DNA of 64,000 bases from Streptomyces carminius (GTDB lineage: Bacteria; Actinomycetota; Actinomycetes; Streptomycetales; Streptomycetaceae), in the NCBI RefSeq assembly GCF_002794255.1, contig NZ_PGGW01000066.1:1-64000 (forward strand), given 5' to 3'. Position 1 is the stretch's first letter. Every line of letters begins with the position of its first letter. The position numbers and the translations under genes were made by a program. Below, piece by piece: positions 33,877 through 51,680 of the stretch. The notes below the pieces were generated by a model. It saw nothing but the letters and a program-made list of their open reading frames with translations. It was not told where the DNA came from and searched no databases.

Positions 33877-34692
33877 ATGGCAGACGTCTCGCCCGCCTCC
33901 GACAGGCGGGTGCCGCCGCAGATCGACACCACCGTGCCGCACTCGGCCCGGATCTGGAACTACTGGCTGGGCGGCAAGGACTACTACGAGGTCGACCGGT
34001 CGGCGGGCGACCAGTTCGCCGCCCACTTCCCCGCCATCGCCGACACCGCCCGGGCGTTCCGGGAGTTCCTGGGCCGTGCCATCCACCATCTGGCCGGTGA
34101 GGTGGGCGTCCGGCAGTTCCTGGACGTCGGCACCGGGCTGCCGACCGCCGACAACACCCACGAGGTCGCCCAGCGCGCCGCGCCCGGTGCCCGGATCGTC
34201 TACGTGGACAACGACCCCCTCGTCCTGGCCCACGCCCGCGCCCTGCTCACCTCCACCCCCGAGGGCGCCACCGACTACGTCCACGCCGACCTGCACGACA
34301 CCGACCGCATCCTGGCCGAGGCCGCCCGCACCCTGGACCTCGACGAGCCCGTCGCCCTGATCCTCAGCGGCATCCTCGGCCACCTCGCCGACCATGAGGA
34401 GGCGCTGGCGATCGTGCGGCGGCTGCTGGACCCCCTGCCGCCGGGCAGCCATCTGGTGGTCTGCGACGGCACGGACACCGACGAGGTGCTCAACGAGGCG
34501 CAGGAGCAGCACAACGAGGGCGGCGCGTCCCAGTACCACCTGCGCAGCCCCGAGCAGATCGCCGGTTACTTCGGCGGCCTGGAACTGCTGGAGCCCGGTG
34601 TGGTGCCGTGCTCGCGGTGGCGTCCGGAGACCAGCACCACCGGAGTCCTGACCGAGGCACACGCCTACAGCGGCGTGGGCCGCAAGCCGTAG
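33877..34692 (+). CDS. SAM-dependent methyltransferase (Methyltransf_19/DUF574)
   Basis: 271 residues of a family common in Streptomyces: SARIWNYWLGGKDYYEVDR near the N-terminus, the SAM-binding LDVGTGLPTADNTHEVAQ, VYVDNDPLVLAHARALL (acidic residue after the second strand) and SGILGHLAD. The substrate is not known for the family. ATG 33877 follows GGAGCAACCTC. It diverges from the FUSC gene. Confidence 0.9.
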   Translation: MADVSPASDRRVPPQIDTTVPHSARIWNYWLGGKDYYEVDRSAGDQFAAHFPAIADTARAFREFLGRAIHHLAGEVGVRQFLDVGTGLPTADNTHEVAQRAAPGARIVYVDNDPLVLAHARALLTSTPEGATDYVHADLHDTDRILAEAARTLDLDEPVALILSGILGHLADHEEALAIVRRLLDPLPPGSHLVVCDGTDTDEVLNEAQEQHNEGGASQYHLRSPEQIAGYFGGLELLEPGVVPCSRWRPETSTTGVLTEAHAYSGVGRKP

Positions 34693-34716
34693 CGGACGCC
34701 CGTCGCCGCCGGCCGA

Positions 34717-34869
34717 CCGCCGGCCGACCGCCGTCCGGCACCGCCGCGGCCCCCGGCGGCCTCCCGGACGTCCGGCGGGACCGGCCCGGCCGCCCGTACG
34801 GCCCGCGCCGGATGTCTGCGAGGCCGGGAAAGGGGTACCCGGCGGTGCCGGACGGCGGTCGGCCGGCGG
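34717..34869. repeat. 30-bp perfect inverted repeat flanking 93 bp
   Basis: Arms at 34717-34746 and 34840-34869 are exact reverse complements over 30 bp. The left arm overlaps a tandem GCCGGCCGACC pair. The spacer has no gene. It lies between the methyltransferase stop and the phosphatase start. It may form a long transcript hairpin with a 93-nt loop, or mark a small rearranged element. Confidence 0.85.
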
Positions 34870-34918
34870 CGTCCGGCACCGCCGGAGACCGGCCCAGGCG
34901 GTGAGAGGACAGCGAGGG

Positions 34919-36787
34919 ATGAACGCGACCGGCCGGACGCAGGAGCCCGGTGTCCTCCTGCGGGCGGTCTTCGAGGACCTGGGCGCCGGGGTGATCGCCG
35001 CGGACGCCACCGGCGGGGTGATCGCCGCCAATCCCCGCGCGGAGCAGCTCGTGGCCCGTCCGGCGCCGGAGATGCTCGGCCGCAACCTGCACGACCTGCT
35101 GCACCGCAACGCGGACGGCAGCGGGATCCCCCGCGAGCGGTGCCGGATGCTGCGGGTGCTCGCCGACGGCAGACCGGCCGAGGGCAGCGACGAGTACCTG
35201 CTGCGGGGCGACGGCGTCACCGTGCCGATCATCTGGTCCGCCTCCCGGCTGCGGCTGGCCGGCGAGCCGGACGGGCTCGTGCTCGTCTTCCACGACTTCA
35301 GCGTCCGCCGGGCCGCGGAGGAGCAGACGGCGGCCCACCTGGCGGCGCTGGAGACCCTGACCGCGCGGCTGACGCTGGTGGCCGAGGTCTCCAGCGTCCT
35401 CATCTCCAGCCTGGACGTCCCCGCGGTGCTGCGGCGGGTGGGACGGCTGCTGGTGCCGGAACTCGCCGACTGGACGGCGGTGGACGTCCACACCGGCCAG
35501 CCGGGCGAGGTGCGCCGGGTCGCCGTCCACAGCGGCACCGACCCGGTGTCCGCCGGGGAGCTGGAGGGCTCGCTGCCGCTCCTGCCGGAGGCGTCCGGCG
35601 CGCCCCTGGCCCGCGCGCTGCGCGGCACCCGGCCGGTCCCGGTGAGCGCCGCGGACACCGGCGGTTCCGTACGGGAGCCCGACACCCCGTTCACGGCCGC
35701 CCACCGGCAGCTCTTCGAACGGCTCGGCGGGCACAGCGCGGTCGTGGTGCCGCTGCACAGCCGCAGGCAGGTCTACGGGGCCCTGACGGCGGCCCGTACC
35801 GGGGACTCCCCGCCCTACAGCGAGGACGAGACGATGCTCCTCGCCGACATCGGCCGCCGGGCCGGGCTGGCGATGGACAACGCCCGCCTCTTCGACCAGC
35901 AGCGCCATGTGGCCGAGGCCATGCAGCGCCATCTCCTGACCCCGCTGCCGCAGGTGGACCACCTGCGGATGGCGGCCCGTTACCGGCCCGCCGAGATGGC
36001 CGCCGAGATCGGCGGGGACTGGTACGACGCCTTCCTGCTGGCCGACGGGGCCGTCACCATGGTCATCGGGGACGTGGTGGGGCACGACCTGCAGGCGGCC
36101 GCCCACATGGCCGAGGTGCGCAACATGCTGCGTGCCCTGGCCTGGGACCGGCAGGAGCCCCCCAGCCTGGTCATGCGCCGGCTGGACGAGGCCATGACCA
36201 ACACCAGCGACGCCCCCATGGCCACCGTCGTCTTCGCCCGGGTGGAGGGCGACGAGGGCGGTCCCTGGCAACTGCACTGGGTCAACGCCGGGCACCCTCC
36301 GCCGCTGCTGGCCGCCGCCGACGGCCGGACCCGCTGGCTGGAGGGCGGCCACGGCCCGCTGCTGGGCATGAGCGCGACCCTGCGGCTGGGGCTGTCCTGG
36401 CCCGACGCCCGCGAGGACCTGCCTCCGGAGTCGACGGTGCTGTTCTACACCGACGGCCTGGTGGAGAGCCGCAACCGGCCGGTCGACACCGGCATGGCCC
36501 TGCTGTGCCGGCACGCCGCCGCCCTGGCCCGCAGCGATGTGGAGGACTTCTGCGACGAGCTGCTGGAACGCATGGATCCCCGCGGCGACGACGTGGCCCT
36601 GCTCGCCCTGCGGCTGCCGCCGTACGGGGCCGGTGCCCCGGGTGACGACACTCCGCAGCCGGCGCGGGGCAGGCGCGCGCACAGCCCGGCCGACGCCTCC
36701 AGGTCGGCCCCCGGGGCCGAGGCGCTGGGCGCCGACGAGGTGCTCGCGGACGCGCCCCGGGGCACCGCCCGGCCGCCCCTGCCCTGA
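34919..36787 (+). CDS. PAS-GAF-SpoIIE protein phosphatase
   Basis: About 622 residues: a PAS domain (about 10-135, FEDLGAGVIAADATGGVIAAN), a GAF domain (about 155-330) and a PP2C/SpoIIE catalytic domain with AMQRHLLTPLP, AEIGGDWYDAFLL, VIGDVVGHDLQAAAHMAEVRN, WVNAGHPPPLL and FYTDGLVESR, plus RGDDVALLALR at the end; the acidic metal ligands are present. ATG 34919 has AGGA 9 bases upstream; GTG 34901 in the same frame is possible. The target is probably an anti-sigma antagonist of the STAS type, such as the one encoded 4 kb upstream, but this is a guess. Confidence 0.9.
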   Translation: MNATGRTQEPGVLLRAVFEDLGAGVIAADATGGVIAANPRAEQLVARPAPEMLGRNLHDLLHRNADGSGIPRERCRMLRVLADGRPAEGSDEYLLRGDGVTVPIIWSASRLRLAGEPDGLVLVFHDFSVRRAAEEQTAAHLAALETLTARLTLVAEVSSVLISSLDVPAVLRRVGRLLVPELADWTAVDVHTGQPGEVRRVAVHSGTDPVSAGELEGSLPLLPEASGAPLARALRGTRPVPVSAADTGGSVREPDTPFTAAHRQLFERLGGHSAVVVPLHSRRQVYGALTAARTGDSPPYSEDETMLLADIGRRAGLAMDNARLFDQQRHVAEAMQRHLLTPLPQVDHLRMAARYRPAEMAAEIGGDWYDAFLLADGAVTMVIGDVVGHDLQAAAHMAEVRNMLRALAWDRQEPPSLVMRRLDEAMTNTSDAPMATVVFARVEGDEGGPWQLHWVNAGHPPPLLAAADGRTRWLEGGHGPLLGMSATLRLGLSWPDAREDLPPESTVLFYTDGLVESRNRPVDTGMALLCRHAAALARSDVEDFCDELLERMDPRGDDVALLALRLPPYGAGAPGDDTPQPARGRRAHSPADASRSAPGAEALGADEVLADAPRGTARPPLP

Positions 36788-36788
36788 C

Positions 36789-36826
36789 GCCTCCGGCCGC
36801 CGGACCGGGCCACGGCGGCCGGAGGC
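36789..36826 (+). terminator. Terminator hairpin after SpoIIE phosphatase
   Basis: A perfect 14-bp stem (36789-36802 with 36813-36826) and 10-nt loop begin 2 nt after the stop. Confidence 0.75.
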
Positions 36827-36992
36827 CGGTACGGCATTCGGGTCGTGATGATGCGAGATCCCCGGGCGTGGGTGATGCTGGCATGCGAGCCGGTACATAT
36901 GAGTCCATATCGGACGAATATGGCTGCCGAGACTCCGGCTCGGTCCGTGCCGGTGAACCGGACGGCGCCACCGACGACCCGTGAGGAACATC

Positions 36993-37547
36993 GTGTCAGA
37001 ACGCAACACCTTCGCCCGGAGCCTGCACGACCTCGGCCTGGGGGCCTGGTTCGGCGGATCGCTGATGGGAGTCATCGGCCTCAACGGCGCCGCCGCCGAC
37101 GAGGACACCGCCGACCGCGACCGGGTCTCCACCAACGGCTGGGCCAAATGGACCCCGGTCAACGCCGCCGCGATCGCCGCCCACCTGATCGGCGGCACCG
37201 TCATCCTGGCGGCCAACGCCCGCCGGGTGCAGTACCAGCGCGGCGTCGACGTCTCCACCGCGGCGAAACTCGCCGCCACCGGGGCGGCGATGGCCGCGAC
37301 CGCCTACACGCGGGTCCTGGGCAAGCGCCTGGAGCGGGCCACCGAGCCGGAGCCCGGCGGCGGCGAGGGCACCGAGGACCTGATGTCCGCCGACGACGCG
37401 CGGCGTCAGATGCACATCGCCCAGTGGGCGGTCCCCGCGCTGACCGGTGTCGTGATGGTGCTCAACTCCCTCCACGGCGAGCAGCAGCGCCCGGAGGAGC
37501 AGCGGCGGGGGATCCTGCAGCGGGTCACCGGGCGCGATGTCCCCTGA
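36993..37547 (+). CDS. Conserved small membrane protein, function unknown
   Basis: 184 residues. Hydrophobic segments at about 17-32 (GLGAWFGGSLMGVIGL), 50-70 (NAAAIAAHLIGGTVILAA), 84-100 (AAKLAATGAAMAATAYT) and 143-160 (WAVPALTGVVMVLNSL). Family unknown to me, though such proteins recur in Streptomyces. GTG 36993 is preferred over GTG 36981 because GAGGA lies 6 bases before it. The stop is 80 bp before the inositol-phosphate synthase. Confidence 0.75.
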   Translation: MSERNTFARSLHDLGLGAWFGGSLMGVIGLNGAAADEDTADRDRVSTNGWAKWTPVNAAAIAAHLIGGTVILAANARRVQYQRGVDVSTAAKLAATGAAMAATAYTRVLGKRLERATEPEPGGGEGTEDLMSADDARRQMHIAQWAVPALTGVVMVLNSLHGEQQRPEEQRRGILQRVTGRDVP

Positions 37548-37627
37548 CCCGCTCCCGTTCCGTACGTCCGGCGGCGGTACCGCCGCGGCGCGGTACCGCC
37601 GGATGCCGATCCGCAGGGAGGCGAACC

Positions 37628-38848
37628 ATGCACGAGCCGGCCGGTGACGGACCCGCGCGGCGGCTGGGAGCGGCCGTCGTGGGACTGGGCGGCGCGGTGG
37701 CCACGACGGCCGTGGCCGGCGTCGAACTGCTCAGGCTCGGCAGCTGCGGACCGGAGGGTCTGCCCCTGGCGGCGCGCGGCGACCTGGTGCCCTACGACGC
37801 CCTGGTCTTCGGCGGCTGGGACGTGTCCGCCGACGACCTGGCGAAGGCGGCCCACCTGCACGGCGTCCTGGACCCGGCCCAGATCGAGGCCGTGGCCCCC
37901 CGGATGCAGCAGCTGCGCCCCTGGCCGGCCGTCGCGGACCCGGCGTACTGCCGCGGGGTGACCGGGGCGAACGTCACGACGGCCGGCACCCCGCGCGAGC
38001 GGGCCGAACGGATCCGGGCGGACCTGCGGGGCTTCAGGACCGAGCAGGGCCTGGACACGGTGGTCGTGGTCAACCTGGCCTCCACCGAACGCCGCCCGGA
38101 CCCGGCCGCGCCGGCGCTCGCCTCCCCCGAGGCGTTCGAGGAGGCGCTCGACCGGGGGGACGAGGCCGTCACCCCGGCCATGGTGTACGCCTACGCGGCC
38201 CTGCGGGAGGGCATGCCGTACGTGAACTTCACCCCCAGCGTCGGGGCCGACGCGCCGGCCCTGACCGAGCTGGCCGAGCGGCTGGGGGTGCCGGTCGCCG
38301 GCAAGGACGGCAAGACCGGGCAGACCCTGCTCAAGACCGTGCTCGCTCCCGCGCTGCGCTCCCGCGCGCTGCGGGTGGAGGGCTGGTACTCCACCAATCT
38401 GCTGGGCAACCGGGACGGCCGGGCGCTGGAGGACCCGGACTCGCTGGCCAGCAAGACGGCCACCAAGGGCGCCGCGCTGGACGCCCTGCTGGGCTACCCG
38501 GTCGAGGACCATCTGGTCCGCATCGAGTACTACCGGCCGCGCGGGGACCGGAAGGAGGCGTGGGACAACGTCGATCTGGTGGGCTTCCTCGGCCACCGCA
38601 TGCAGCTGAAGATCGACTTCCTGTGCCGGGACTCCGTGCTGGCCGCGCCGCTGGTCCTGGAGCTCGTCCGGCTGCTCGCGGAGGCGCGGCGCCGGGGCGA
38701 GCGGGGGCCGCAGGAGCAGTTCGGGTTCTTCTTCAAGGCCCCGGCGACCCGCGACGGACGCGTGCCGGAGCACGCCCTGCACCGCCAGGAACGCCGGCTG
38801 CTGGAGTGGCTGGACCGCACCGGCGCGCCGGAGGTCGTACGGCCGTGA
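37628..38848 (+). CDS. ino1: Inositol-3-phosphate synthase
   Basis: 406 residues. The NAD-binding motif VVGLGGAVATTAVAG opens the protein; the catalytic half has VNFTPSVGADAP, AGKDGKTGQTLLKTVLAPA, EGWYSTNLLGNRDGRALEDP, SKTATKGA and EYYRPRGDRKEAWDNVD, all canonical. It turns glucose-6-phosphate into inositol-phosphate, using NAD as a recycled cofactor. It opens a nine-gene operon; its stop overlaps the next start by 4 bp (GTGA). Actinobacteria normally have another Ino1 for phosphatidylinositol and mycothiol, so this copy is likely devoted to the product of this cluster (inference). RBS GGGAGGCG precedes ATG 37628. Confidence 0.95.
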   Translation: MHEPAGDGPARRLGAAVVGLGGAVATTAVAGVELLRLGSCGPEGLPLAARGDLVPYDALVFGGWDVSADDLAKAAHLHGVLDPAQIEAVAPRMQQLRPWPAVADPAYCRGVTGANVTTAGTPRERAERIRADLRGFRTEQGLDTVVVVNLASTERRPDPAAPALASPEAFEEALDRGDEAVTPAMVYAYAALREGMPYVNFTPSVGADAPALTELAERLGVPVAGKDGKTGQTLLKTVLAPALRSRALRVEGWYSTNLLGNRDGRALEDPDSLASKTATKGAALDALLGYPVEDHLVRIEYYRPRGDRKEAWDNVDLVGFLGHRMQLKIDFLCRDSVLAAPLVLELVRLLAEARRRGERGPQEQFGFFFKAPATRDGRVPEHALHRQERRLLEWLDRTGAPEVVRP

Positions 38849-39858
38849 CGCACACCGCATCCCCGGCGGCGCGGGGCGCACCCGGAGAACCTCCCGCGGT
38901 GGTGCCGCGGCGGGCGCTGCGCGCCGCGGCACCGCTGTTCCGCGAGCTCGGCGACCTCAAGCGGGTACGCACCGCCGGATGCGCGGGCTCGGTCGCCGAG
39001 CGCTCCTTCCTGCGGGCCTGGACGGCGCTGGCCCGGGGCGCCGACCCCGGCGAGGTCGCCGCGGCCGAGTGCGCCGCCGCCGTGGCCGGCGCGCGCCTGG
39101 CCGGGGTGGACGGCCCGGTGCTGCGCCGCTGCGGGCTCGGCGAGCGGGAGGCCGCCGACGTGCTGCGGCGCTCGGTGGAGACGCACCGCGGCCGGCTGGA
39201 GCCGCGGACCCTGGACCGGCTGGCGGAGGCGCTGCCCGGCCTGGTGGCCGAGCCCTCCGGACCGTCCGGTGCCGACGGGGCGCCGCGGTTCGCGCGGGCC
39301 CTGTGCGCCCAGCCCCGGGCCGGCGCCACCTGCCCGGGACGCCCGCGGCTGATGGCCGAACCGGCCGAGAGCCACGGCGACCACTGCTGGGCCACCGCGG
39401 TCTGCGCGGCGCTGCTGGCCGACGCGTTCGGCGCCGATCCGGCGGACGCCTTCCTCCTCGGCCTCGCCCACCACCTGCACAACGCCGTCCTGCCCGACGC
39501 CGGGTTCGCCGGTGAGGAACTGCTGGGCGAGTATCTGCCCGGTATCACCGCCCGGCTGACCGACCGTGAGCTGGCCGGCCTGCCCCCCTCCCTCGCGGCC
39601 CGGCTGACCGCCCTGCTGGACGCCCGCGAGGAGACCGCGCGCCCGGCCTCCCGCGCCTTCCAGGCCGCCGACGTCCTGGACCGGGTGCTCCAGACGCACC
39701 ACCACGCGCGCGCCGCCGCCTTCACCGCCGAGCAGGCGCTGGGGGAGATGCGCCTGGTGCACGACTCCCCGGTGGCGGACTTCCACCACGCGGTGCTGGC
39801 CGCGGCGGGGCCGGGGGAGCCGGTGGGCCCCGGGGCGCCCGGACGGGAGTCCGGATGA
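38845..39858 (+). CDS. HD-domain hydrolase-like protein
   Basis: 337 residues. The C-terminal half (about 170-320) has an HD-type layout: AESHGDHCWATAVCAAL, LLGLAHHLHNAVLPDAGF in place of the classical HD pair, and FQAADVLDRVLQTHHH with a conserved Asp. The N-terminal half is helical and unlike anything I recognise. HD proteins hydrolyse phosphate esters or nucleotides. A phosphatase acting on an inositol-phosphate intermediate would fit the operon, but the metal ligands are not canonical and this is inference. The GTG start overlaps ino1 and its stop overlaps the next gene. Confidence 0.68.
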   Translation: MTHTASPAARGAPGEPPAVVPRRALRAAAPLFRELGDLKRVRTAGCAGSVAERSFLRAWTALARGADPGEVAAAECAAAVAGARLAGVDGPVLRRCGLGEREAADVLRRSVETHRGRLEPRTLDRLAEALPGLVAEPSGPSGADGAPRFARALCAQPRAGATCPGRPRLMAEPAESHGDHCWATAVCAALLADAFGADPADAFLLGLAHHLHNAVLPDAGFAGEELLGEYLPGITARLTDRELAGLPPSLAARLTALLDAREETARPASRAFQAADVLDRVLQTHHHARAAAFTAEQALGEMRLVHDSPVADFHHAVLAAAGPGEPVGPGAPGRESG

Positions 39859-41093
39859 GTGACACGGTGCGCGGCGAACCGGCAGCCCGGGAGACCGCCC
39901 GGGGGACCGCCCCGGAGACGGCCGGCCTGGTCAGTCCCGTCAACGGGGCGCCGCTGGTCCCCTGCGGTCCGGGCCTGCTGTCCGACGGGGAACGGCGCTG
40001 GCCGGTCGTCGCGGGCATCCCCTGGCTGCGCACCGGGCGTGAGGAGCTGCGCGAGCGGGCGGTCGGTCACCTCGCCCGCGGCGACGTCACCGGATCCGCG
40101 GTGGCGCTGCTCGCCGACGCCGACGACTGGTGGGACCGCCCGCCGCCGCCCGCCGGGCGGCTGCGCGCCGCGCTGGCCGCGCCCACCCTGCGCGAGGCGG
40201 TCCGGCTGCTGGACATGGGCCGGGTGGGGGACTACTTCCTGCACCGGTGGAGCGACCCGACCTGGCTGGCCGTCCTCGCCCTGACGGACCGCCATCCCCC
40301 CGGGGAGCTTCCGGTGCTGGAGCCCGCCTGCGGAGCGGGCCACCTGCTGCGCGAGCTGGCGCTGCGCGGGCACCGCGAGGTGACGGGGATCGACGTCGTC
40401 TTCGCCAAGCTGTGGCTGGCCCGGCGCTTCGTCGCCCCCACCGCCCGGCTGATCTGCGCGGACCTCACCGCACCCTGGCCGCTCCTGCCGCGCGGCCCGG
40501 CGTACGTGGCGTGCCACGACGCGCTGTACTTCCTGCCGGACAAGCACCGGGTCGTCCACCGCGCCTGCCTGCGTGCCGACCGCGACGGCGGCGGCGCCGT
40601 CGTCCTGGGGCACTGCCACAACGCCCTGGTACCGGGCCAGGGCGCGGGACTTCCGCTGGACCCGGCCGGCTGGCGGTCGCTGCTGCCGCACGCCCTGTGC
40701 TACGACGACGCCGAACTGACCCGGGCCGCGCTGGAGGGAACCGCCCCCGCCCCCCGGTCCGTACGGGAGCTGGCCGGCAGCGCGGCGCTGGCCCTGGTGG
40801 ACGCCCCGGCCCCGCCGCCCGTCCACCACCGCCCCGGCAGGCTCCTGCGGCCCGTCCCGGGGCGCCCCCTGCGGCTCAACCCCCTCTACCGCGCCGGACG
40901 GCGGCACTGGCCGGGGGAGCGCTGGCGGGCCGAGTACGCGGTGGCCTCCCCGGTCGGCGCCGCCGACTACCTGCCCGAGCGCGTACGGCTGTCCGAGGAC
41001 GTGCTCGCCGACGCCCGGGCCGGCCGTCCGACCCCCGAGGTGCTGGAGTACGCCCGCCGCCGGGTGCTGCTGGACCTGCCGGAGCGGTGGTGA
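39855..41093 (+). CDS. SAM-dependent methyltransferase with Trm112-like N-terminus
   Basis: 412 residues. The first about 60 residues look like a Trm112/UPF0434 module (LVSPVNGAPLVPC, RRWPVVAGIPWLR) without the zinc Cys. The SAM-binding core follows with LEPACGAGHLLRELALRG, VTGIDVVFAKLWLARR and CHDALYFLPD. About 130 residues after the core contain no motif I can name. The likely substrate is an intermediate of the operon. ATG 39855 overlaps the HD gene by 4 bp. Confidence 0.78.
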   Translation: MSDTVRGEPAARETARGTAPETAGLVSPVNGAPLVPCGPGLLSDGERRWPVVAGIPWLRTGREELRERAVGHLARGDVTGSAVALLADADDWWDRPPPPAGRLRAALAAPTLREAVRLLDMGRVGDYFLHRWSDPTWLAVLALTDRHPPGELPVLEPACGAGHLLRELALRGHREVTGIDVVFAKLWLARRFVAPTARLICADLTAPWPLLPRGPAYVACHDALYFLPDKHRVVHRACLRADRDGGGAVVLGHCHNALVPGQGAGLPLDPAGWRSLLPHALCYDDAELTRAALEGTAPAPRSVRELAGSAALALVDAPAPPPVHHRPGRLLRPVPGRPLRLNPLYRAGRRHWPGERWRAEYAVASPVGAADYLPERVRLSEDVLADARAGRPTPEVLEYARRRVLLDLPERW

Positions 41094-42289
41094 GCGCGGT
41101 GCGGCCCGCCGGACGGCGGGCACTGGGGGAGAGCCGACCCGGTCGGGACGACGGGGCCGGCAGGGCCGGCTGCGCCTGGGGAATCGCAGGCTGCGGCTGG
41201 GTGGCCCGGGACCACTTCCTGCCCGGACTGCTCCAGGCCGCCCGCAGGCATCCGGCCGCGCCCCCGCGGCTGGTCGCGGCGGCCGACCCCGACCCGGCCG
41301 CCGCCGCCCGGCTGGCGCGACGGGCACCCGGCGCGAGCACCGCCGCGGACACCGGGGAGCTGCTGGCCGGGCACCGGCCCGACGCGGTGTACGTCGCCGT
41401 GCCCAACCACGCCCACCGCCGGGTCGTCGAGGAGGTCGCCGCCGCCGGGACGCCGGTGCTGTGCGAGAAGCCGCTGGCGGCGGACCTCGCCGACGCCGAG
41501 GCGCTGGTCGCGGCCTGCCGCCGGGCGGGCGTGCTCGCGGGCACCGCCTACGACCAGCGCTTCCATCCGGCCCACCGGGCCGCGGCGGACCTGGTGGCCG
41601 CCGGGGAGCTGGGCACGGTCACCGCGGTGCGGATCGTCTACGGCTGCTGGCTGCCGCCCGCCTGGTCACCGGACGGCCGCCGGTACGACAACTGGCGCGC
41701 GGACCCGGCGCGCGCCGGCGGCGGCGCGCTGCTCGATCTCGCCCCGCACGGCCTGGACCTGGTGGGGGTACTGCTCGGCGGGGACGACGTGGAGCAGCTG
41801 GCGGCCGTGACGCAGCGCCGGGTGCACCCCTACCCGGTCGACGACGGAGCCGCACTGGCCGGCCTCACCCGCGGTGGGGTCCTCTTCGGCGCGCATGTCG
41901 CCTACAACATCCCCGAGGCCCCCGGCACACCGCCGCGCCGCAGGCTGGAGATCACCGGCACCCGCGGCACACTGACCGCGCTCGACACCCTCGGGCAGGA
42001 ACCCGGCGGAACGGTGAGGCTGACCGGCGCCCGCGGCGGCCCGCCGGCACCGGTGCGCTTCGACACCTCGCTGTCGCCCTTCACCCGCCAGATCGAGGAG
42101 TTCTCGGCGGCCGTGGCGGCCACCGCGGCCGGCGTCCCGCCGGAGCTCGCCTGGCCGTGGCCGCTGGAGCGGGACCTGGCCCTGCACCGCCTGCTGCTCA
42201 CGGCCCTGGACCGCACGGGCACCGCGCTCCCGCCGCCGGCGCCCGCGGGGCCGGAGCCGCCGCACACCGCCCCGGAGGGCGTCCGATGA
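41090..42289 (+). CDS. Gfo/Idh/MocA-family oxidoreductase
   Basis: 399 residues. Rossmann motif GIAGCGWVARDHFLPG (about residues 32-47), the AVPNHAHRRVVEEVAAAG loop, the catalytic CEKPLA (Lys of the EKP motif) and AYDQRFHPAH; the C-terminal part has PHGLDLVGVLLGG, giving the expected His. Members oxidise hydroxyls of sugars and inositols, including inositol 2-dehydrogenase. In an operon headed by ino1 an inositol or pseudo-sugar substrate is plausible. GTG 41090 overlaps the methyltransferase by 4 bp. Confidence 0.9.
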   Translation: MSAVRPAGRRALGESRPGRDDGAGRAGCAWGIAGCGWVARDHFLPGLLQAARRHPAAPPRLVAAADPDPAAAARLARRAPGASTAADTGELLAGHRPDAVYVAVPNHAHRRVVEEVAAAGTPVLCEKPLAADLADAEALVAACRRAGVLAGTAYDQRFHPAHRAAADLVAAGELGTVTAVRIVYGCWLPPAWSPDGRRYDNWRADPARAGGGALLDLAPHGLDLVGVLLGGDDVEQLAAVTQRRVHPYPVDDGAALAGLTRGGVLFGAHVAYNIPEAPGTPPRRRLEITGTRGTLTALDTLGQEPGGTVRLTGARGGPPAPVRFDTSLSPFTRQIEEFSAAVAATAAGVPPELAWPWPLERDLALHRLLLTALDRTGTALPPPAPAGPEPPHTAPEGVR

Positions 42290-43116
42290 CCCTGCGCCCG
42301 TACGCCTGCGCCGGCTGCGGCCACTGGCAGCGCTGGTTCGCCCCGCCGCCCGACTGCCCCGTCTGCCGCGACGTGCGCAACGCCCTGCCCGCGGACGGCT
42401 GGGAGCTGCCGGCGGAGAAGTCGGTGGCCGACCGGCTCGCCACCCGCCGGTACCGGCCGGTGGAGGGGATCACCGGGTTCACCACCGATCCGCCCTTCGG
42501 GCTGGGGTCCACCGGCTGGCTGATCGGGACGCCGGAGGGCAACGTCGGCTGGGAGGCCGCGCCGTACTACCCGCCCGACGCGCTGGCCGAGATCCGGGCG
42601 CTGGGCGGCATCGCCCGGCTGGGCGCCAGCCATGTGCACGGCTACGGGGCGCTGTGGCAGCTCCAGGAGCGGTTCGACCCGCCCGTCGTCGCCGTCGGGG
42701 TGGCGGACCTGGAGTGGACGAAGGCCTTCCGGGTGACCTGGCCCGTGGATGAGGAGCTGGAACTGGCCCGGGGCCTGACGATGTACCGCACCGGCGGTCA
42801 CTTCCCCGGCCACTGCGTGCTCCACGACGCGGAGCGGGGAATCCTGTTCTGCGGGGACGCGCTCAAGGTCGATCTGGACGGCGGCGGCGCCCCGCGCGCC
42901 CTGTCCTGCCACAAGGCCTACCACGCCCGGATCCCGCTCTCGCACGCCGAACTGCGCGTCTACCGGGAGGTGATCGGCCGGCTGGACTTCCACGCGGTGG
43001 CCACCCCCTTCGAGTTCGCCGCGCCGGTGACCACCGAGGACGTGCTGCGCCTGTTCGACCGGCAGCTGTCCGGACAGCCCGGCACGGCGCCCGTACCGTT
43101 GGAGGACCTGCGGTGA
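42286..43116 (+). CDS. Metallo-beta-lactamase-fold protein with N-terminal zinc ribbon
   Basis: 276 residues. Cys8, Cys11, Cys24 and Cys27 (CAGC...CPVC) form a rubredoxin-like zinc ribbon. The body follows the MBL pattern but with altered ligands: SHVHGYG (115-121) in place of HxHxDH, GGHFPGHCVL with His176, and LFCGDAL with Asp191. The last His of the family is not seen. It may bind one metal or act as a redox or scaffold protein. It is coupled to the oxidoreductase before it and the YcaO gene after it by 4-bp overlaps. Confidence 0.82.
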   Translation: MTLRPYACAGCGHWQRWFAPPPDCPVCRDVRNALPADGWELPAEKSVADRLATRRYRPVEGITGFTTDPPFGLGSTGWLIGTPEGNVGWEAAPYYPPDALAEIRALGGIARLGASHVHGYGALWQLQERFDPPVVAVGVADLEWTKAFRVTWPVDEELELARGLTMYRTGGHFPGHCVLHDAERGILFCGDALKVDLDGGGAPRALSCHKAYHARIPLSHAELRVYREVIGRLDFHAVATPFEFAAPVTTEDVLRLFDRQLSGQPGTAPVPLEDLR

Positions 43117-44645
43117 GCACCGAAGCGAACACCGAAGCGAACACCGACACGAGCGCCGAAGCGGGAACCGGGGAGGGCACCGGGCGGAACGCCGCGGTCC
43201 GCGCCTACCGCCGGGCCCTGGGCCCCGGCCGCTGCGGCGACTTCGACATCGGCGCCCTGGACCGCACCGGCGTCCCCGTCGTCTCGGCCGACCACACCGA
43301 CCCCGCGGGGAGGCGCCACGCGGCCTGCGGCTACGGCGCCGCCCCGGAACAGGCCCGCACCGGTGCCTACGGCGAGCTCGCCGAGGAGGTCCTGCCCGCC
43401 CGCCGGCTGGCCGCCCTGCCGCGCCGCCTGGCCTCCTACGCGGAGCTGGTGCGCGAACGCGGCCGCGACCGGGTCGCCGACCCCGTCTCCCTGACCCTGC
43501 CCGCCGGTGCCGGCTACACCGACGACCGCCCCCTGGAGTGGGTCCCCCTCCGGCGGCTGCGCACCGGCGAGGAGGTGCTGGTGCCCGCCGAGTTCGCCGC
43601 CTCCGACCCCGGCGACCTGCCCGGCGGCCCCCCGCCGGGCGGTTGGCTGACCACTCCGGTCACCAACGGGCTGGGCGCCGGCGACACGCGCGAGCGCGCC
43701 CTGTCCCACGCCCTGCTGGAGATCCTCCAGCGCGACGGGAACGCCACCGCGCACCGGGCGATGGACCGGGGTGTGGTGATCGAGCCGGACGAGGTGGCCG
43801 ATCCCGTCACCCGGCGGGTGCTCGACCGGCTGCGGTCGGCGGGTGTGACGGTCCTGCCCAAGCTGGCCTCCACCGCCTTCGGCATGGCCGACGTCCATGT
43901 GGTCGGCACCGACGCCGACCCCGCGGCGCCGCCCCTGGTGCTCACCGCCTGCGGCGAGGCCGCCCACCCGGACCGGGAGACGGCGCTGCGCAAGGCGGTG
44001 CTGGAGTACGCCTCCTCCCGGGTCCGCAAGATCTTCTTCCACGGTCCGCTGGAGACGGCCGCCCGGGTCGCCCCGCCCGGCTACCTGGAGCGCGAGCTGT
44101 CCGCGCCCGTGCCCGCCCAGGAGCCGCGGGCCCTGGCGGCGATGGCGGCCTGGACGGCGATGGACGCCGCGGGGCTGCGGGCCCTGCTGGAGCCGGCCGT
44201 GCTGGCACGGCGCTCCACCGTGCCCTTCTCCGCGCTGCCCACCGTGGCGGCGGGCGCCCTGGCGGACCCCGCCGTGCTCCTGGCGGACCTGCTGGAGCGG
44301 CTCGCGGACTTCGACGTGCTGGTGCTGGAGACGGGTGGGCCGGAGGCGTGGGCGGTCAAGGTACTGGTGCCCGGCACGGAGGTGGAGACCATGTCGTACG
44401 GACGCGTCGGCGAACGCGGTGTGCGGCGGCTGCTGGAGCGCGGGTCGGAGCTGGCCGGGCTGGGCCCGCCACCCGGGCCCGGGGCGCGGCCGGTGCACCT
44501 GCGGCCGGAGGCGCGCGAGCGGCTGGGCGGTCCGGCCTGGTTCGACGCGGCGGCCGCCCGGCGGCTGGTGGGGCCGCTGTACCCGCTCTACCGCGAGCCC
44601 GCCCGGCACGCGGTGGCCCGGCTGGCGGCCGGAGGCGCGCGGTGA
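43113..44645 (+). CDS. YcaO-domain ATP-dependent enzyme
   Basis: 510 residues. After a repetitive Glu/Thr/Ala N-terminus, the three ATP-binding motifs of YcaO are present: AYGELAEEVLPAR (85-97), NGLGAGDTRERALSHALLEI (185-204, followed by LQRD) and ALRKAVLEYASSR (291-303). YcaO enzymes activate amide backbones for azoline, thioamide or amidine formation; some act outside peptide natural products. The Pro-rich C-terminus typical of azoline-forming YcaO is missing, no E1/ocin-ThiF partner is nearby, and no precursor peptide fits between these overlapping genes. A small-molecule substrate is therefore likely, by inference. Confidence 0.88.
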   Translation: MSTEANTEANTDTSAEAGTGEGTGRNAAVRAYRRALGPGRCGDFDIGALDRTGVPVVSADHTDPAGRRHAACGYGAAPEQARTGAYGELAEEVLPARRLAALPRRLASYAELVRERGRDRVADPVSLTLPAGAGYTDDRPLEWVPLRRLRTGEEVLVPAEFAASDPGDLPGGPPPGGWLTTPVTNGLGAGDTRERALSHALLEILQRDGNATAHRAMDRGVVIEPDEVADPVTRRVLDRLRSAGVTVLPKLASTAFGMADVHVVGTDADPAAPPLVLTACGEAAHPDRETALRKAVLEYASSRVRKIFFHGPLETAARVAPPGYLERELSAPVPAQEPRALAAMAAWTAMDAAGLRALLEPAVLARRSTVPFSALPTVAAGALADPAVLLADLLERLADFDVLVLETGGPEAWAVKVLVPGTEVETMSYGRVGERGVRRLLERGSELAGLGPPPGPGARPVHLRPEARERLGGPAWFDAAAARRLVGPLYPLYREPARHAVARLAAGGAR

Positions 44646-45589
44646 GCGCGGCGGGCGGCCTGCGCTACGCCTACAACACCAACGGGATGACCTCCCACCG
44701 GCTGGCGGACGCCCTGGCCCTGCTGGCGGACAGCGGCTACGACGGGGTGGCGCTCACCGTGGACGTGGCCCACCACGACCCCTTCGCCCCCGGCCTGGCC
44801 GCCCGTACCGCCGCGCTGGCCCGCCGGCTGGACCGGCTGGGCCTGGCCGTCACCGTGGAGACCGGTGCCCGCTTCCTGCTGGACCCCCGGCGCAAGCACG
44901 AGCCGACCCTGGTCACCGCCGACCCCGCGGGACGGGCCCGCCGGCTGGCGTTCCTGCGGCTGTGCGCGGACATCGCCGCGGACCTCGGTGGCGAGGCGGT
45001 GTCGTTCTGGGCGGGCGTGCCGGCCCCCGGCACGGACGCGTCCCCGGGCGGGACGGCCTGGCGGCACCTGGTGGAAGGGACGCGCGCGGTCGTCGAGTAC
45101 GCGGCCGGGCGCGGGGTGACGGCGGCCTTCGAGCCCGAGCCGGGGATGCTGGTGCAGGACTGCGCGGACTGGCACCGGCTGGCCGCCGAGGTGCCCGGGC
45201 TGCGGCTGGCCCTGGACACCGGTCACTGCCTGGTGACCGGGGCCCTGTCGCCGCCGGACGCGGTCCGGGCCCACGCCCGCGAGCTGGGCGCGGTCGCCGT
45301 GGAGGACATGCCGCGCGGCCGTCACGAGCACCGCGCCCCGGGTGAGGGGGACATGGACCTGCCCGCCGTGCTCGGGGCGCTGCGCGCCGTGGGGTACGGC
45401 GGGCTTGTCTCCCTGGAACTGTCCCGCGACGCCCACCGCGCCGACACCCTGGTGCCCGCCGCGCTGGCGGCCCTGCGCCGCGCCGAGGCCCGCGCCCCCG
45501 CGCGGACCGGGGCGGACACCGCTCCGGCCGGCACCCCGGACACCGCCCCGGACACCGCCGTGGCCACCGCTCCGGAGGGGGCCCGATGA
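44642..45589 (+). CDS. Sugar phosphate isomerase/epimerase-like TIM-barrel protein
   Basis: 315 residues of AP-endonuclease-2/xylose-isomerase-like fold: YAYNTNGM at the first strand, TVETGARFLLDP, AFEPEPGML (Glu ligand), LALDTGHC (Asp and His), RHEHRAPGEGDMDLP and LVSLELSRDAHRAD. Relatives include inositol catabolic IolE/IolI and EboE-like proteins. About 35 C-terminal residues are Ala/Thr/Pro-rich. GTG 44642 overlaps the YcaO stop by 4 bp. An isomerisation or dehydration of an inositol-derived ketone would fit its neighbours. Confidence 0.85.
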   Translation: MSAAGGLRYAYNTNGMTSHRLADALALLADSGYDGVALTVDVAHHDPFAPGLAARTAALARRLDRLGLAVTVETGARFLLDPRRKHEPTLVTADPAGRARRLAFLRLCADIAADLGGEAVSFWAGVPAPGTDASPGGTAWRHLVEGTRAVVEYAAGRGVTAAFEPEPGMLVQDCADWHRLAAEVPGLRLALDTGHCLVTGALSPPDAVRAHARELGAVAVEDMPRGRHEHRAPGEGDMDLPAVLGALRAVGYGGLVSLELSRDAHRADTLVPAALAALRRAEARAPARTGADTAPAGTPDTAPDTAVATAPEGAR

Positions 45590-46863
45590 GGATCTGCTTC
45601 GTCTCGCGGCGCTACTGGCCCGCCGTGTCGGGGATGAGCGCCTACGCGGAGAACCTGCTGCGCGCCCTGACCGCCGCCGGACACGAGGTCACCCTGGTGG
45701 CCCAGTACCGCGGCGACCGGGCGGGCCGGGCCGTCTACGGCGGCGGCCCGCCACCGCCCGGACGAGTGCCCGAGGGCGTGCGTCTGGTGGCGCTGGAGTC
45801 GGTGGGGGAGCAGGCCGTCAACCGCGGCCGACCGGCCGACTTCGAGGCCGATGTGGCGGCCCTGCGCGAGACGGTGGCCGCGCTGCACCAACGGGCCCCG
45901 CTGGACGTGGTGCACGCCCAGTACGGCTATCCGCCGGGACTGGCCGCGCTGGAGGCCTCCTACCTGCTGGGCGTCCCGGCCGTGGTCTCCGTCCAGGGCG
46001 GTGACGGGCACTGGGTCGGCACCTGCTGCGGCACCCACCGCGCGGCCATCCGGCGGGTCCTGCGCGAGGCCCCGGCCCTGCTGATCGGCTCCCGGTCCTT
46101 CGCGGCCGAGGTCGCCGAGCGCCACCGCGTCCCGGCCGGGCGCTTCACCGTGGTGCCCGGCGCCACCGACACCGCTCTCTTCCGCCCCCGGCCCGGCCGG
46201 GAGCCGGGCGCGGCGGGCGAGGTGCCGGTGCTGCTGTACCACGGCCGGATCGACGCCCGCAAAGGCGTCTTCGAGCTGCTGGAGGCGGTACGGCTGCTGC
46301 TCGCCCGGGGCAGGCGGCTGCGGCTGCTGGTCTCGGGCACCGGCCCGGACGCGGACGCCGTGGCCCGCCGGGCGCGGGAGCCGGAGCTGGCCGCCGCCGT
46401 GGAGGTGCTGGGCCCGGCCGGCTACCACGAGGCCCCGGCCGTGTACCACCGGGGAGACGTGTTCGTGAGCCCCACCTGGGCGGAGGGCTTCTCCAACACC
46501 ATCCTGGAGGCCATGGCCACGGGCCTGCCGGTGGTCTCCACCCGGACGGTCGGGGTGGTGGACTGCGTACGGGACGGTGTGAACGGGCTGCTGGTCCCGC
46601 CCCGCGACCCGGCCGCGCTGGCGGACGCCGTCGGCAGGCTGCTCGACGACCCGCCGCTGCGGGGCGCCCTGGCCCGCGCCGCGCTGGACCAGGTGCGGCG
46701 GCAGTGGTCCTGGCCGGTGGCCGCGGCGCGCATCGGCGCGGTCTACGAGCGGGTCCTCGGCGACTGGACCCCGCCCCGGCCCCCCGGCGCCGGGATCCCC
46801 GCCCGGGTGGTGGGGAGCGCCGACCCGGCCTGCCGGTTCCGCCGGGCCCCGCACCTGCTGTGA
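45586..46863 (+). CDS. Family 4 glycosyltransferase (MshA-like organisation)
   Basis: 425 residues in GT-B fold: N-terminal CFVSRRYWPAVSGMSAYAENLL, inter-domain VVPGATDTALFRP, donor-site region YHGRIDARKGVFELLEAV and the GT4 motif EGFSNTILEAMATGLPVVST. The closest functional parallel in Actinobacteria is MshA, which joins GlcNAc to inositol phosphate in mycothiol synthesis; with ino1 and PIG-L in the operon the parallel is suggestive but the acceptor is unknown. ATG 45586 overlaps the previous stop by 4 bp. Confidence 0.9.
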   Translation: MRICFVSRRYWPAVSGMSAYAENLLRALTAAGHEVTLVAQYRGDRAGRAVYGGGPPPPGRVPEGVRLVALESVGEQAVNRGRPADFEADVAALRETVAALHQRAPLDVVHAQYGYPPGLAALEASYLLGVPAVVSVQGGDGHWVGTCCGTHRAAIRRVLREAPALLIGSRSFAAEVAERHRVPAGRFTVVPGATDTALFRPRPGREPGAAGEVPVLLYHGRIDARKGVFELLEAVRLLLARGRRLRLLVSGTGPDADAVARRAREPELAAAVEVLGPAGYHEAPAVYHRGDVFVSPTWAEGFSNTILEAMATGLPVVSTRTVGVVDCVRDGVNGLLVPPRDPAALADAVGRLLDDPPLRGALARAALDQVRRQWSWPVAAARIGAVYERVLGDWTPPRPPGAGIPARVVGSADPACRFRRAPHLL

Positions 46864-47771
46864 GCCCTCCCGTGCCTCCCGTGCCTCCCGTGCCCCCCGC
46901 GTCCTGGTCCTCCCGGCCGTCCACCCGCCCGTCCGCCCGTACGGCCGTGGCCGTCAGCCCGCACCTGGACGACGCGGTCTTCTCCGCCGGGGGGACCCTG
47001 CTCCTGCTGGTCCGGGCCGGCTGGGCGGTGCGGGTGGTCACCTGCTTCACCGCTTCGGTCGCCGACCCGTGCCCCTTCGCGCTGTCCACCCAGCTCGACA
47101 AGGGACTGCCCGCCGACGCCGACTACATGGCACTGCGCCGTGCCGAGGACCGCGCCGCGCAGCGGGCGCTGGGCGCGCTGCCCCCCGAGCACCTGCCGCT
47201 GGCCGAGGCCCCGCACCGCGGCTACGACAGCCCGCGGCGGCTGTTCACCGCGCCCCGCGCCGACGACCGGGCCGCGGCCGAACTGCCGCGGCTGCTGCGC
47301 CCCCACCTGGCGGCGGCCGACCTCGTCCTCGCCCCGCGGGGGATCGGGGGACATGTCGACCACCTGGTCACGGCCCGGGCCGTCGCCGCCGTCGCGCCGC
47401 CCGCGCGCACGGCGTGGTGGCGCGACCTCCCCTACGCCGTCCGCGCCGCCCGCGAGCCGGGCGCGGGGCCCCTCCCACCGCCCGCGGGCACGGCGGAGGT
47501 GACGGTCGGCATCGCCGCGGCGCTCACGGGCAAGACCGCGGCGGCCCGGTGCTACACCACCCAGCTGGGCTTCCAGTTCGGCGGCACGGAGCGCGTCGGC
47601 ACGGTCCTGGCGGCCGCGGCCCGCGGTGAGGCGCGCCGCACGGGCGCGCCCTGCACCCACGGCGAGGCGCTGAGCGCCGGACACCGGGCGCGGCGGCTGC
47701 TGGCGGACGCCGTACGGGGCCACGGGGCGGTGGCCCGGACCGCGGGGGAGCGGGCGCCCTTCCGGCCGTGA
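46860..47771 (+). CDS. PIG-L-family deacetylase
   Basis: 303 residues. The zinc motif is AVSPHLDDAVFSAGG (His35, Asp37, Asp38) and the third ligand is in GGHVDHLVTARAV. PIG-L enzymes remove the acetyl group of GlcNAc-type residues, as MshB does in mycothiol synthesis or as in aminoglycoside pathways. The first 28 residues are Pro/Ser-rich. GTG 46860 overlaps the glycosyltransferase by 4 bp, and this gene closes the operon. It is convergent with the B12-binding gene. Confidence 0.9.
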   Translation: MSPPVPPVPPVPPASWSSRPSTRPSARTAVAVSPHLDDAVFSAGGTLLLLVRAGWAVRVVTCFTASVADPCPFALSTQLDKGLPADADYMALRRAEDRAAQRALGALPPEHLPLAEAPHRGYDSPRRLFTAPRADDRAAAELPRLLRPHLAAADLVLAPRGIGGHVDHLVTARAVAAVAPPARTAWWRDLPYAVRAAREPGAGPLPPPAGTAEVTVGIAAALTGKTAAARCYTTQLGFQFGGTERVGTVLAAAARGEARRTGAPCTHGEALSAGHRARRLLADAVRGHGAVARTAGERAPFRP

Positions 47772-47979
47772 ACGGACCGGCGGGCCCGCCGTCCCGGCCG
47801 GCCGCCGCGCCGAGTGCGGGCCCGCGAGCGGATGGGGCGGGTCCCCGGCCCGCCGCGCGGTCCTGGCACGCGGGACGCCGTCCTTCCCCGCGGGCGGGAG
47901 GCACTTCGCGGACGTGAGCCCCCGGGACTCCCCGCGGGAGCGGGGGCCGGACCGGGCGGCCCGGCCCGGCCCGGAGCGC

Positions 47980-49092
47980 TCAGAGCGGGAGGGGCCCCGG
48001 CCGCCCGGGGGGTCCGGAGCCCGCGGGCCGGGAGGTGTCCGGCCGGACGAGCACGGCCTGCCCCGCGACGGTGAACGCCGCGGCACGGGGCAGGCCGTCC
48101 AGCTTTCCGGCCAGGACGTCCAGTCCGGCGGCCAGGGAGTGGGCGGGCACCCCGCGGGCGGCCAGGATCCGGGCGGTCCAGGCCAGGAAGTCCTCGAACA
48201 GGCCGGGATCGTCGACGTACAGGGCGGCGGCCAGGAAGTCGAGGACATGCGCCAGGTCCTCGGCGGTGCGCTCCCGCTGCTGCTCGGTGTAGTCGCGCAT
48301 GCCCGGGAAGCGCTCGGGCAGCTCCCGGAGGACCTCGGCGACCAGCTGTGAACGGGCCCTGCCGACTTGGGCGTGCTCGTGGTCCGGGGGGACCGGCCGC
48401 TCCCGGTCCGCCGGATCGGCGACCCGCGGGGAGGGCAGGCCCGCGGCGAGGCGCTCGGCGGCGGAGCGGGCGTCGGGGGCCCAGACGTCGGCGCCCAGCG
48501 TCCGTGCCCACCGGCCGTCCGGCCCGAAGCCCGCGCCGCCCGCCAGCACGGGGACACCGGCGGCCTGGCAGGCGGTGACGGTGGCGTGGGCCACGGGCAG
48601 CCGCACCGGCAGGGAGCAGGACAGGGCCACGGCGTCCGGCCCGGTCGAGTGCAGATGCGCCACCAGGTGCCGGACGGGCACATGGGCGCCGAGGAAGTCC
48701 ACCTGCCAGCCGCGCAGCCGCAGCACCTCGGCCACCAGCCGGGCGGGCAGCGCGTGCCACTCGCCGTCGGTGCAGGTCACCACGGTGTGGCCGAGCCGGG
48801 GCACGGCGGTCCGGGCCGCCGGAAGGGCGGCGACCGCGGCGACGGCCCGGCCGCTGATGGCGGTGGCCGCGTGCTCCTGGGCGACCGTGAGAAGGTTGTC
48901 CGCCCACCGGGCGCCGACGCGCCGCTGGGCCGCCGCGACGACGTCCAGCAGGACGTCCTCCGGCGGTACGCCCTCCTCCACCGCTCCCACGGCCAGGCCG
49001 ACGGCGGCGTGCTCGTCGGCGTTCTCCAGCGCGGTCCAGAACTTCTCGGCCAGTTCCCCGAGCTCGGCGGCGGGGACGGTGGGGGGTGTCAC
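47980..49092 (-). CDS. B12-binding protein with photoreceptor-type W-x9-EH motif
   Basis: 370 residues without a helix-turn-helix. Residues about 10-95 form the helical cap seen in CarH/LitR photoreceptors, with Trp63 and Glu73-His74 in the exact W-x9-EH spacing that cradles adenosylcobalamin. A Rossmann B12 domain follows (about 100-225; TVVTCTDGEWHALPARLV with His113 at the cobalt-ligand place, VDFLGAHVPVRHLV, GGAGFG). A helical C-terminal domain (about 245-350) resembles the N-terminal sensor domains of RsbR-like proteins. GTG 49092 overlaps the phosphatase stop by 4 bp. A light or B12 input to that phosphatase is inferred. Confidence 0.85.
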   Translation of the reverse strand: MTPPTVPAAELGELAEKFWTALENADEHAAVGLAVGAVEEGVPPEDVLLDVVAAAQRRVGARWADNLLTVAQEHAATAISGRAVAAVAALPAARTAVPRLGHTVVTCTDGEWHALPARLVAEVLRLRGWQVDFLGAHVPVRHLVAHLHSTGPDAVALSCSLPVRLPVAHATVTACQAAGVPVLAGGAGFGPDGRWARTLGADVWAPDARSAAERLAAGLPSPRVADPADRERPVPPDHEHAQVGRARSQLVAEVLRELPERFPGMRDYTEQQRERTAEDLAHVLDFLAAALYVDDPGLFEDFLAWTARILAARGVPAHSLAAGLDVLAGKLDGLPRAAAFTVAGQAVLVRPDTSRPAGSGPPGRPGPLPL

Positions 49093-50852: not shown

Positions 50853-50957
50853 TGGGATACGGGGGTGGACGTGTCTCGCGCCTCACCCGGCCACCCCTCC
50901 GGCTTCAGGTGCCACTGGACGGTTGTTCTGTGCAACGGTCTCGCGGAGAGGGCGGCA

Positions 50958-50978
50958 TACGCAAGTCCGATTTGCGTA
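50958..50978. promoter_or_regulatory. TACGCAA inverted repeat upstream of phosphatase/B12 operon
   Basis: TACGCAA, 7-bp spacer, TTGCGTA: a perfect 7+7 inverted repeat about 105 bp upstream of the phosphatase start, in the least GC-rich part of the gap. It looks like an operator for a dimeric regulator. No regulator gene lies next to it. Confidence 0.5.
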
Positions 50979-50987
50979 CCGGTGGTC

Positions 50988-51473: not shown

Positions 51474-51597
51474 GGGATGTCCGTCCGATCGTCGTCCGGC
51501 CCGGTCGTCCGGTCCGTCCTGTACGACCGTGATCCTGCCGGTCCCGGCCGGCGCGCGCAGCCCGGGCCGGGCCGTACGGGTGCCGCGCCGGTTCTCC

Positions 51598-51615: not shown

Positions 51616-51680
51616 ACGGTGGGGGCGGCCGCGGAAGCGGCCGGAGAAGGCGGCGGACGGCGACTTGGGAGGACGCGGAC

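Follow-up and report, generated by a model that had tools for sequence, protein, structure and literature searches.

A conserved nine-gene YcaO cassette of Streptomyces carminius and bacteria from four phyla, a candidate pathway for an amino-sugar-linked inositol glycoside

The first 64,000 nucleotides (nt) of contig NZ_PGGW01000066.1 of Streptomyces carminius (assembly GCF_002794255.1), which will be referred to as the window, carry an operon of nine genes combining an inositol-3-phosphate synthase (Ino1), a GT4 glycosyltransferase and a PIG-L de-N-acetylase with a YcaO protein, an HD-fold protein, a methyltransferase, a Gfo/Idh dehydrogenase, a TIM-barrel enzyme and a metallo-beta-lactamase (MBL) fold protein. 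That this cassette is a horizontally transferred pathway for an amino-sugar-linked inositol glycoside modified by YcaO is, judged from sequence comparison, an evenly balanced proposal; the general class, a cyclitol glycoside, is likely. The families, their conservation and order, the borders of the unit, the optional genes and a link of Ino1 and the TIM enzyme to the ebo operon were obtained by computation. The operon is real, conserved and apparently undescribed. Searches of 5.39 million open-access papers, a scope outside which most subscription journals lie, gave no description of the nine-gene set among the matches listed and no text containing both YcaO and PIG-L; an earlier note on this DNA likewise knew of no described pathway with this set.

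Nine open reading frames, all translated without internal stops, fill positions 37,628 to 47,771 of the forward strand (Table 1), and all eight junctions share exactly 4 nt (GTGA five times, ATGA three times) with the inferred starts. By eye, a GGAG-type Shine-Dalgarno-like sequence was recognised 5-10 nt ahead of eight of the nine starts, with none at 46,860. A 4-nt overlap is possible in only four of the 28 other co-directional neighbour pairs of the window, so that a run of eight far exceeds the local rate. One codon-score caller chose later starts in five genes (38,899, 39,867, 41,201, 45,634 and 46,947), and a second one placed −4 at five of the eight junctions of the window (50, −4, −7, −4, −4, −4, −4, 17), at eight of eight in S. 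ruber (L025), at seven of eight in Streptomyces DH37 (L024) and at fewer in Acetobacteraceae loci. The overlapping nine-gene run reported in the earlier note was thus confirmed by frames and junctions, its start sites being inferred, and the gene content listed there agrees with Pfam. The fixed ratio of products which that note deduced from the overlaps is conjectural; 4-nt overlaps are less regular beyond Streptomyces. Ratios of nonsynonymous to synonymous substitution rates of 0.23-0.63 were obtained for all nine genes in every pair among the window, L024 and L025; purifying selection acts on all nine genes.

Table 1. Genes of the cassette, with positions in the window, strand and supporting matches
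Feature	Position	Strand	Evidence
ino1, inositol-3-phosphate synthase, non-mycothiol subtype	37628..38848	+	PF07994 2.8e-62 (profile 70-320 of 321), PF01658 1.4e-31
HD-fold protein, HH replaces HD; possible YcaO partner	38845..39858	+	Pfam HD_3 1.4e-5
S-adenosylmethionine (SAM) methyltransferase, optional	39855..41093	+	PF13649 5.1e-8
Gfo/Idh/MocA dehydrogenase	41090..42289	+	PF22725 3.3e-23, PF01408 3.5e-22
MBL-fold protein, Cys4 N-terminal stretch, incomplete metal motif, optional	42286..43116	+	PF00753 1.5e-7
YcaO, stand-alone type	43113..44645	+	PF02624 4.5e-47
TIM-barrel epimerase/isomerase/dehydratase, near ebo TIM protein	44642..45589	+	PF01261 6e-38
GT4 glycosyltransferase	45586..46863	+	PF13692 2.8e-37
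PIG-L/LmbE de-N-acetylase	46860..47771	+	PF02585 2.1e-15
Complete cassette, transfer unit	37628..47771	+	blastn edges against L024 and L025

Gene order was compared over 67 YcaO loci (L083 was dropped, its YcaO being identical to that of L040). GT4 plus TIM, or PIG-L, accompanied YcaO in 59 loci, and 50 of these were uncut, with more than 300 bases past the outermost gene on both sides. Collinearity was found in 48 of the 50 uncut clusters, the exceptions being L038, where MBL-YcaO has shifted to the front, and L075; all nine genes were present in 29. The genes for Gfo/Idh, YcaO, GT4 and PIG-L occurred in every uncut cluster, followed by those for TIM (49), HD (48) and Ino1 (46), with MBL (41) and methyltransferase (40) as optional genes. 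This order supports the idea of one co-inherited pathway and contradicts the possibility, considered in the earlier note as a refutation, that order is not conserved. The methylated product proposed there holds for clusters with the methyltransferase and, as ten of the 50 lack it, does not hold generally. Pairwise distances of the eight other families correlated with those of YcaO (r 0.80-0.91, species relatedness uncontrolled). The remaining eight of the 67 loci consist of L113, cut by a contig end, L103 (HD-methyltransferase-YcaO), L109 (HD-YcaO) and five with YcaO only. Tandem YcaO genes were seen inside myxobacterial clusters, two in L105 and L110 and three in L107. Two irregular loci may be mentioned: Gfo/Idh and MBL lie within one uninterrupted frame at L115:10729-13140 (minus strand), a possible fusion, and in L048 of Hymenobacter volaticus Gfo/Idh is split into two annotated frames while GT4 has no annotation and its match falls into two parts.

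The first YcaO scan yielded 24 loci, two from Streptomyces, one from Pyxidicoccus and 21 from Acetobacteraceae (some now Roseomonadaceae), to which plasmid loci of Hymenobacter volaticus, Methylobacterium aquaticum, M. bullatum and Roseomonas haemaphysalidis were added. Profile searches of genomes (E 1e-60 or better) then detected the YcaO in at least 24 of 249 genomes of the Belnapia mucosa family, at least 31 of 193 sampled Myxococcota, at least six of 299 Pseudomonadota and at least nine of 296 genomes of the window's phylum, the window's own included and the other eight belonging to one family. These counts are lower bounds, mostly with 5 to 8 first-look candidates scored per genome; those for the Belnapia family, Myxococcota and Pseudomonadota include the centre genome known beforehand to hold the YcaO, and that for the Belnapia family also includes other genomes known from the first scan. 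Neighbourhoods were analysed for 13 stretches from 12 Belnapia-family genomes and one from G325, for L027 and a further 12 stretches belonging to 11 of the 31 Myxococcota, for all eight of the actinobacterial family and for all five new Pseudomonadota. Together the hosts, comprising Acetobacteraceae, Methylobacterium, myxobacteria, two actinobacterial families and Hymenobacter, span four phyla, with some of the clusters one or two genes short of the full set. Within its genus the cassette is rare: under the same limit on candidates scored, none of 294 other genomes sampled had it, and the contig scan added the two named Streptomyces, DH37 and S. ruber. The YcaO tree mostly follows lineage and joins the window, L024 and L025 with support 100/100; in each of the genomes G325 and G451, however, both the Methylobacterium-like and the Acetobacteraceae clade are represented by a copy. 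A second YcaO gene of the S. carminius genome lies elsewhere (G000:C71:113568-114272).

The borders of the cassette are sharp. In blastn, approximately 21 kb each of L024 and L025 matched the window only at 37,661-47,706 and 37,639-47,720, respectively, and no flanking gene family is common to the three. Homology confined to the operon indicates a cassette set in differing surroundings with its edges preserved, and a self-contained unit transferred horizontally across four phyla is the best reading of these data. Its near-collinear retention over four phyla, plasmids included, and the presence of its YcaO in 31 of 193 sampled Myxococcota argue that the product must be useful.

Flanking genes recur within lineages. 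One gene family stands directly upstream of ino1 in all eight myxobacterial clusters with an ino1 gene and no contig end at that point; its L101 member, the one tested, is a multidrug and toxic compound extrusion (MATE) exporter (273.4 bits, cut-off 147.4). A major facilitator superfamily (MFS)-like gene recurs beside Acetobacteraceae clusters, the tested member having its best NCBIfam match below cut-off. These adjoining genes suggest that the product is probably secreted in myxobacteria and many Acetobacteraceae. Two more families recur beside Acetobacteraceae clusters, an OpgH/MdoH-like glucosyltransferase at 21 loci and GalE at 16 (from each a single member was tested), and would fit a cassette that modifies cell-surface sugars or lipids instead of making a free metabolite. 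We consider this unlikely, as neither family adjoins the Streptomyces or Hymenobacter clusters and no lipid carrier or flippase was seen among the shared flanking families inspected, although no dedicated search was made. After PIG-L, both Acetobacteraceae and Methylobacterium encode members of one family of small proteins, two of which (L031:14209-14850 and L049:14549-15175) had no NCBIfam match.

A link that is new relative to the earlier note concerns the TIM enzyme and Ino1. Homologues of the TIM enzyme at E 1e-30 or better in 30 related genomes comprised 19 loci (L152-L170) with 46-53% identity, and all 19 lie in ebo clusters; these stretches, some of them short contigs, also hold an EboC-like UbiA protein (18 of 19), EboE (18 of 19) and Ino1 (14 of 19). 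The ebo cluster of S. ruber was recognised by NCBIfam (SCO3242 family, 380.9 bits, cut-off 260; EboE, 426.7 bits, cut-off 250), and its Ino1 is 41% identical to that of the cassette. Since the relatives of the TIM enzyme lie in ebo clusters, mostly beside Ino1, it probably belongs with Ino1 and has a cyclitol made by Ino1 as substrate. In eight of the 19 ebo stretches and in L070, a further actinobacterial ebo cluster, a gene for a ThuA/3-keto-disaccharide hydrolase stands ahead of Ino1. The cassette thus has in common with ebo the initial cyclitol-forming enzyme and the TIM protein that goes with it, whereas EboC (UbiA), EboB (a TatD metallo-hydrolase), EboE and EboF are missing from the cassette: none of the nine proteins matched UbiA, TatD or PF01663 in Pfam, or EboC or EboE in NCBIfam (for GT4, among the best 25 of 40 matches). 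Conversely, the six-gene ebo set, as given in the available part of PMC5133447, is without YcaO, PIG-L and GT4. We therefore rejected the idea that the cassette is ebo itself. An isoprenoid-cyclitol product was proposed for ebo in the same source, and the reactions are called unresolved in the portions of the ebo literature that were accessible; the shared Ino1-TIM pair provides a second handle on that operon. Among solved structures the TIM profile matched UlaE best (4.8e-10), then others including IolE (4.5e-8) and IolI; no paper was found in the open-access literature for Art22, a further relative in the PDB.

Ino1, GT4 and a PIG-L deacetylase also form the core logic of mycothiol synthesis. 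The earlier note considered the cassette mycothiol-like yet distinct from that pathway and without MshC or MshD, both of which were borne out. Against the mycothiol models Ino1 reached 37.3 bits (TIGR03450, cut-off 638) and GT4 89.8 bits (MshA, TIGR03449, cut-off 462.5), far below the cut-offs; the PIG-L protein had no match to the MshB model and none of the nine proteins matched MshC or MshD in NCBIfam. The host encodes MshC elsewhere (G000:C67:133075-134298, 671.1 bits, cut-off 485.1), and the cassette adds Gfo/Idh, TIM, HD, MBL and YcaO proteins to the shared trio. By the family cut-offs and the MshC gene elsewhere, mycothiol or bacillithiol as product was rejected. A different product built on glucosaminyl-inositol, either a low-molecular-weight thiol or a redox cofactor for which YcaO would replace MshC, would share the mycothiol core logic, and is improbable given the host's own MshC, a bshB1 gene also present on the Hymenobacter plasmid, the exporter gene adjoining myxobacterial clusters, the rarity of the cluster in the genus and the lack of any Cys-handling enzyme recognised by Pfam among the nine proteins.

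In profile searches against the PDB, Gfo/Idh matched 1,5-anhydro-D-fructose reductase (6.8e-59). The PIG-L protein came closest to the deacetylases Dbv21 (1.1e-26) and Orf2 (1.8e-25), a kinship that speaks for the glycoside; the two differ in that their substrates, by name, are glycopeptide pseudoaglycones. The GT4 profile gave no PDB match at E 1e-40, a threshold too strict to be informative. By description only, the proposed product may be likened to inositol-derived antibiotics: in the available part of PMC8869731, kasugamycin joins D-chiro-inositol, made from myo-inositol, to an amino sugar with a glycine imine, and a myo-inositol dehydrogenase is described for hygromycin A in that of PMC10949010.

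In the YcaO protein, E91, E203, Q206, R207, E298, R303 and R431 were invariant in 16 of 16 sequences; we take these residues to form the ATP site, which is thus predicted to be intact. Its best solved relative is the stand-alone archaeal MJ1094 (1.1e-27), a YcaO of McrA thioamidation. The cassette protein differs from this group in scoring 84.9 bits against the NCBIfam model methan_mark_1 (cut-off 365), and the accessible part of PMC5589413 connects these enzymes with a protein as substrate. The substrates of YcaOs outside the thiazole/oxazole-modified microcins were left unknown in the part of PMC4603692 available, and in a gene-cluster survey of Acetobacteraceae Roseomonas mucosa is the one species credited with a YcaO cluster, as far as the available part of PMC8776678 goes. 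A cassette making a ribosomally synthesized and post-translationally modified peptide (RiPP), with a peptide first altered by YcaO and afterwards glycosylated or linked to a cyclitol, has also to be weighed. The kinship of PIG-L to glycopeptide deacetylases fits such a product and, to our knowledge, the YcaO enzymes characterised so far have peptide or protein substrates. We consider it rather improbable, as no TfuA, E1-like or peptide-binding domain was matched by Pfam in the nine proteins, the operon leaves no room for a precursor gene and the DNA conserved with the two Streptomyces stops at its borders (the operon and its borders being the region inspected for a precursor).

Two further proteins may assist YcaO. 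The AlphaFold model of the HD protein (predicted local distance difference test, pLDDT, 85) was aligned by VIA-align with HDDC2 (Z 12.9, root mean square deviation (rmsd) 4.2, 178 aligned) and YfbR (Z 11.7, rmsd 3.5, 161 aligned), which supports an HD fold for the modelled protein; Foldseek by itself found nothing at E 0.001 (best E 0.013). H180, H209, H210, N213 and D276 were invariant in 20 of 20 sequences. We assume the usual roles for the H..HD..D metal motif and for the Glu three positions after HD (YfbR E72A mutants are among the structure matches listed), and in a weak alignment to 2cqz (i-E 0.87) the HD aspartate corresponds to H210 and the YfbR-type glutamate to N213. Because both are replaced, the phosphatase role that the earlier note thought possible is doubtful, and a plain HD phosphatase is weakened as a candidate. 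An HD oxygenase of the MIOX/PhnZ type was considered as a possible alternative in view of the inositol; PhnZ reached no better than E 0.82 in Foldseek, and neither MIOX nor PhnZ was among the best 50 VIA-align matches listed. Co-occurrence of HD and YcaO without sugar genes in L109 and L103 is read as a partnership of the two proteins.

The MBL model (pLDDT 83) aligned with 2p97 (Z 19.0, rmsd 2.8, 196 aligned), consistent with a retained MBL fold in the prediction, and no sequence relative was found in the PDB at E 0.001. Hydrolases of this fold carry the motif HxHxDH. The cassette protein lacks the complete motif, reading SHVHGYG at 115-121 with H116, H118, G119, Y120 and G121 invariant in 20 of 20 sequences, as are the N-terminal C8, C11, C24 and C27 as well as H172 and D191; the Hymenobacter protein has SHCHVFG, likewise without D and H.

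We suggest the following route. Ino1 would form inositol 3-phosphate, and Gfo/Idh and TIM would oxidise and then epimerise (or dehydrate) the cyclitol. GT4 might add an N-acetylhexosamine from a UDP-sugar, from which PIG-L would remove the acetyl group to give an amino-sugar-cyclitol pseudodisaccharide, methylated in some lineages. With ATP, YcaO might activate a carbonyl so that an N or S nucleophile replaces the oxygen, giving an amide, amidine or thioamide, with HD (probably) and often MBL as partners, and the product would be exported in some lineages. Several points weigh against this glycoside pathway. Among the nine genes we recognised neither an aminotransferase nor an amide ligase, nor any source of acyl groups or amine, which leaves the carbonyl for YcaO activation unexplained. 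In the genomes of L026 and L028, uncut clusters without ino1, no Ino1 (PF07994) was found, nor in that of L029, a metagenome-assembled genome whose cluster is cut by a contig end; Ino1 is thus not strictly required, and imported inositol or another acceptor may be used. YcaO stands alone in five of the 67 loci (L032, L073, L079, L116 and L117, the last truncated at a contig end); a full cluster (L067, L080) lies elsewhere in the genomes of L032 and L079. A search of the L109 genome for this GT4 at E 1e-100 found none, so the substrate of HD and YcaO need not be a glycoside, and HD is absent beside the YcaO genes of L102 and L104, the L102 genome (G593) having HD at L103. Every substrate, the order of steps and the product are, moreover, what we infer from the families.

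A mycosporine-like sunscreen would assign several of these enzymes differently: Gfo/Idh and TIM would yield an enone, the methyltransferase would cap the enol, and YcaO would condense an amine in the manner of MysC, an ATP-grasp enzyme. The IolE match of TIM is consistent with this, as are the hosts, which include Methylobacterium, an air-isolated Hymenobacter and Belnapia (host ecology carrying no statistics), and genes annotated as spore photoproduct lyase family near L051 (251.3 bits, cut-off 400), with one of which a gene near L114 groups. UVA absorbers were reported for Methylobacterium in sources available in part, and gene information for methylobamine as a product was not found in the accessible portions of that literature. 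We regard a sunscreen as very unlikely, because GT4 and PIG-L would be superfluous for such a compound, the methyltransferase is missing from ten of 50 clusters and the UlaE-type epimerase beats IolE as TIM match. If the amino-sugar-linked inositol glycoside is correct and YcaO acts on a small molecule, the known chemistry of the YcaO family widens. The cassette may then, as we propose tentatively, be the first YcaO pathway for a carbohydrate-cyclitol small molecule, with a repurposed HD protein (HH for HD) in the partner role that TfuA has for thioamide YcaOs, and represent a new class of natural products spread over four phyla and akin to ebo at its root. As a defined, cloneable unit of 10 kb it is directly testable.

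The surroundings of the cassette were also inspected. Five of its nine proteins were compared with anti-phage defence systems and gave no PADLOC match, and no known RNA family reached the gathering score in 33,000-52,000. Upstream lies a PAS/GAF/SpoIIE phosphatase gene (34,919-36,787, forward strand), preceded by an S-adenosyl methyltransferase gene (PF04672, 33,910-34,692). Just downstream and convergent with the operon, a B12-binding protein (47,980-49,092) and a SpoIIE-type phosphatase (49,089-50,774) are encoded on the reverse strand with a 4-nt overlap.

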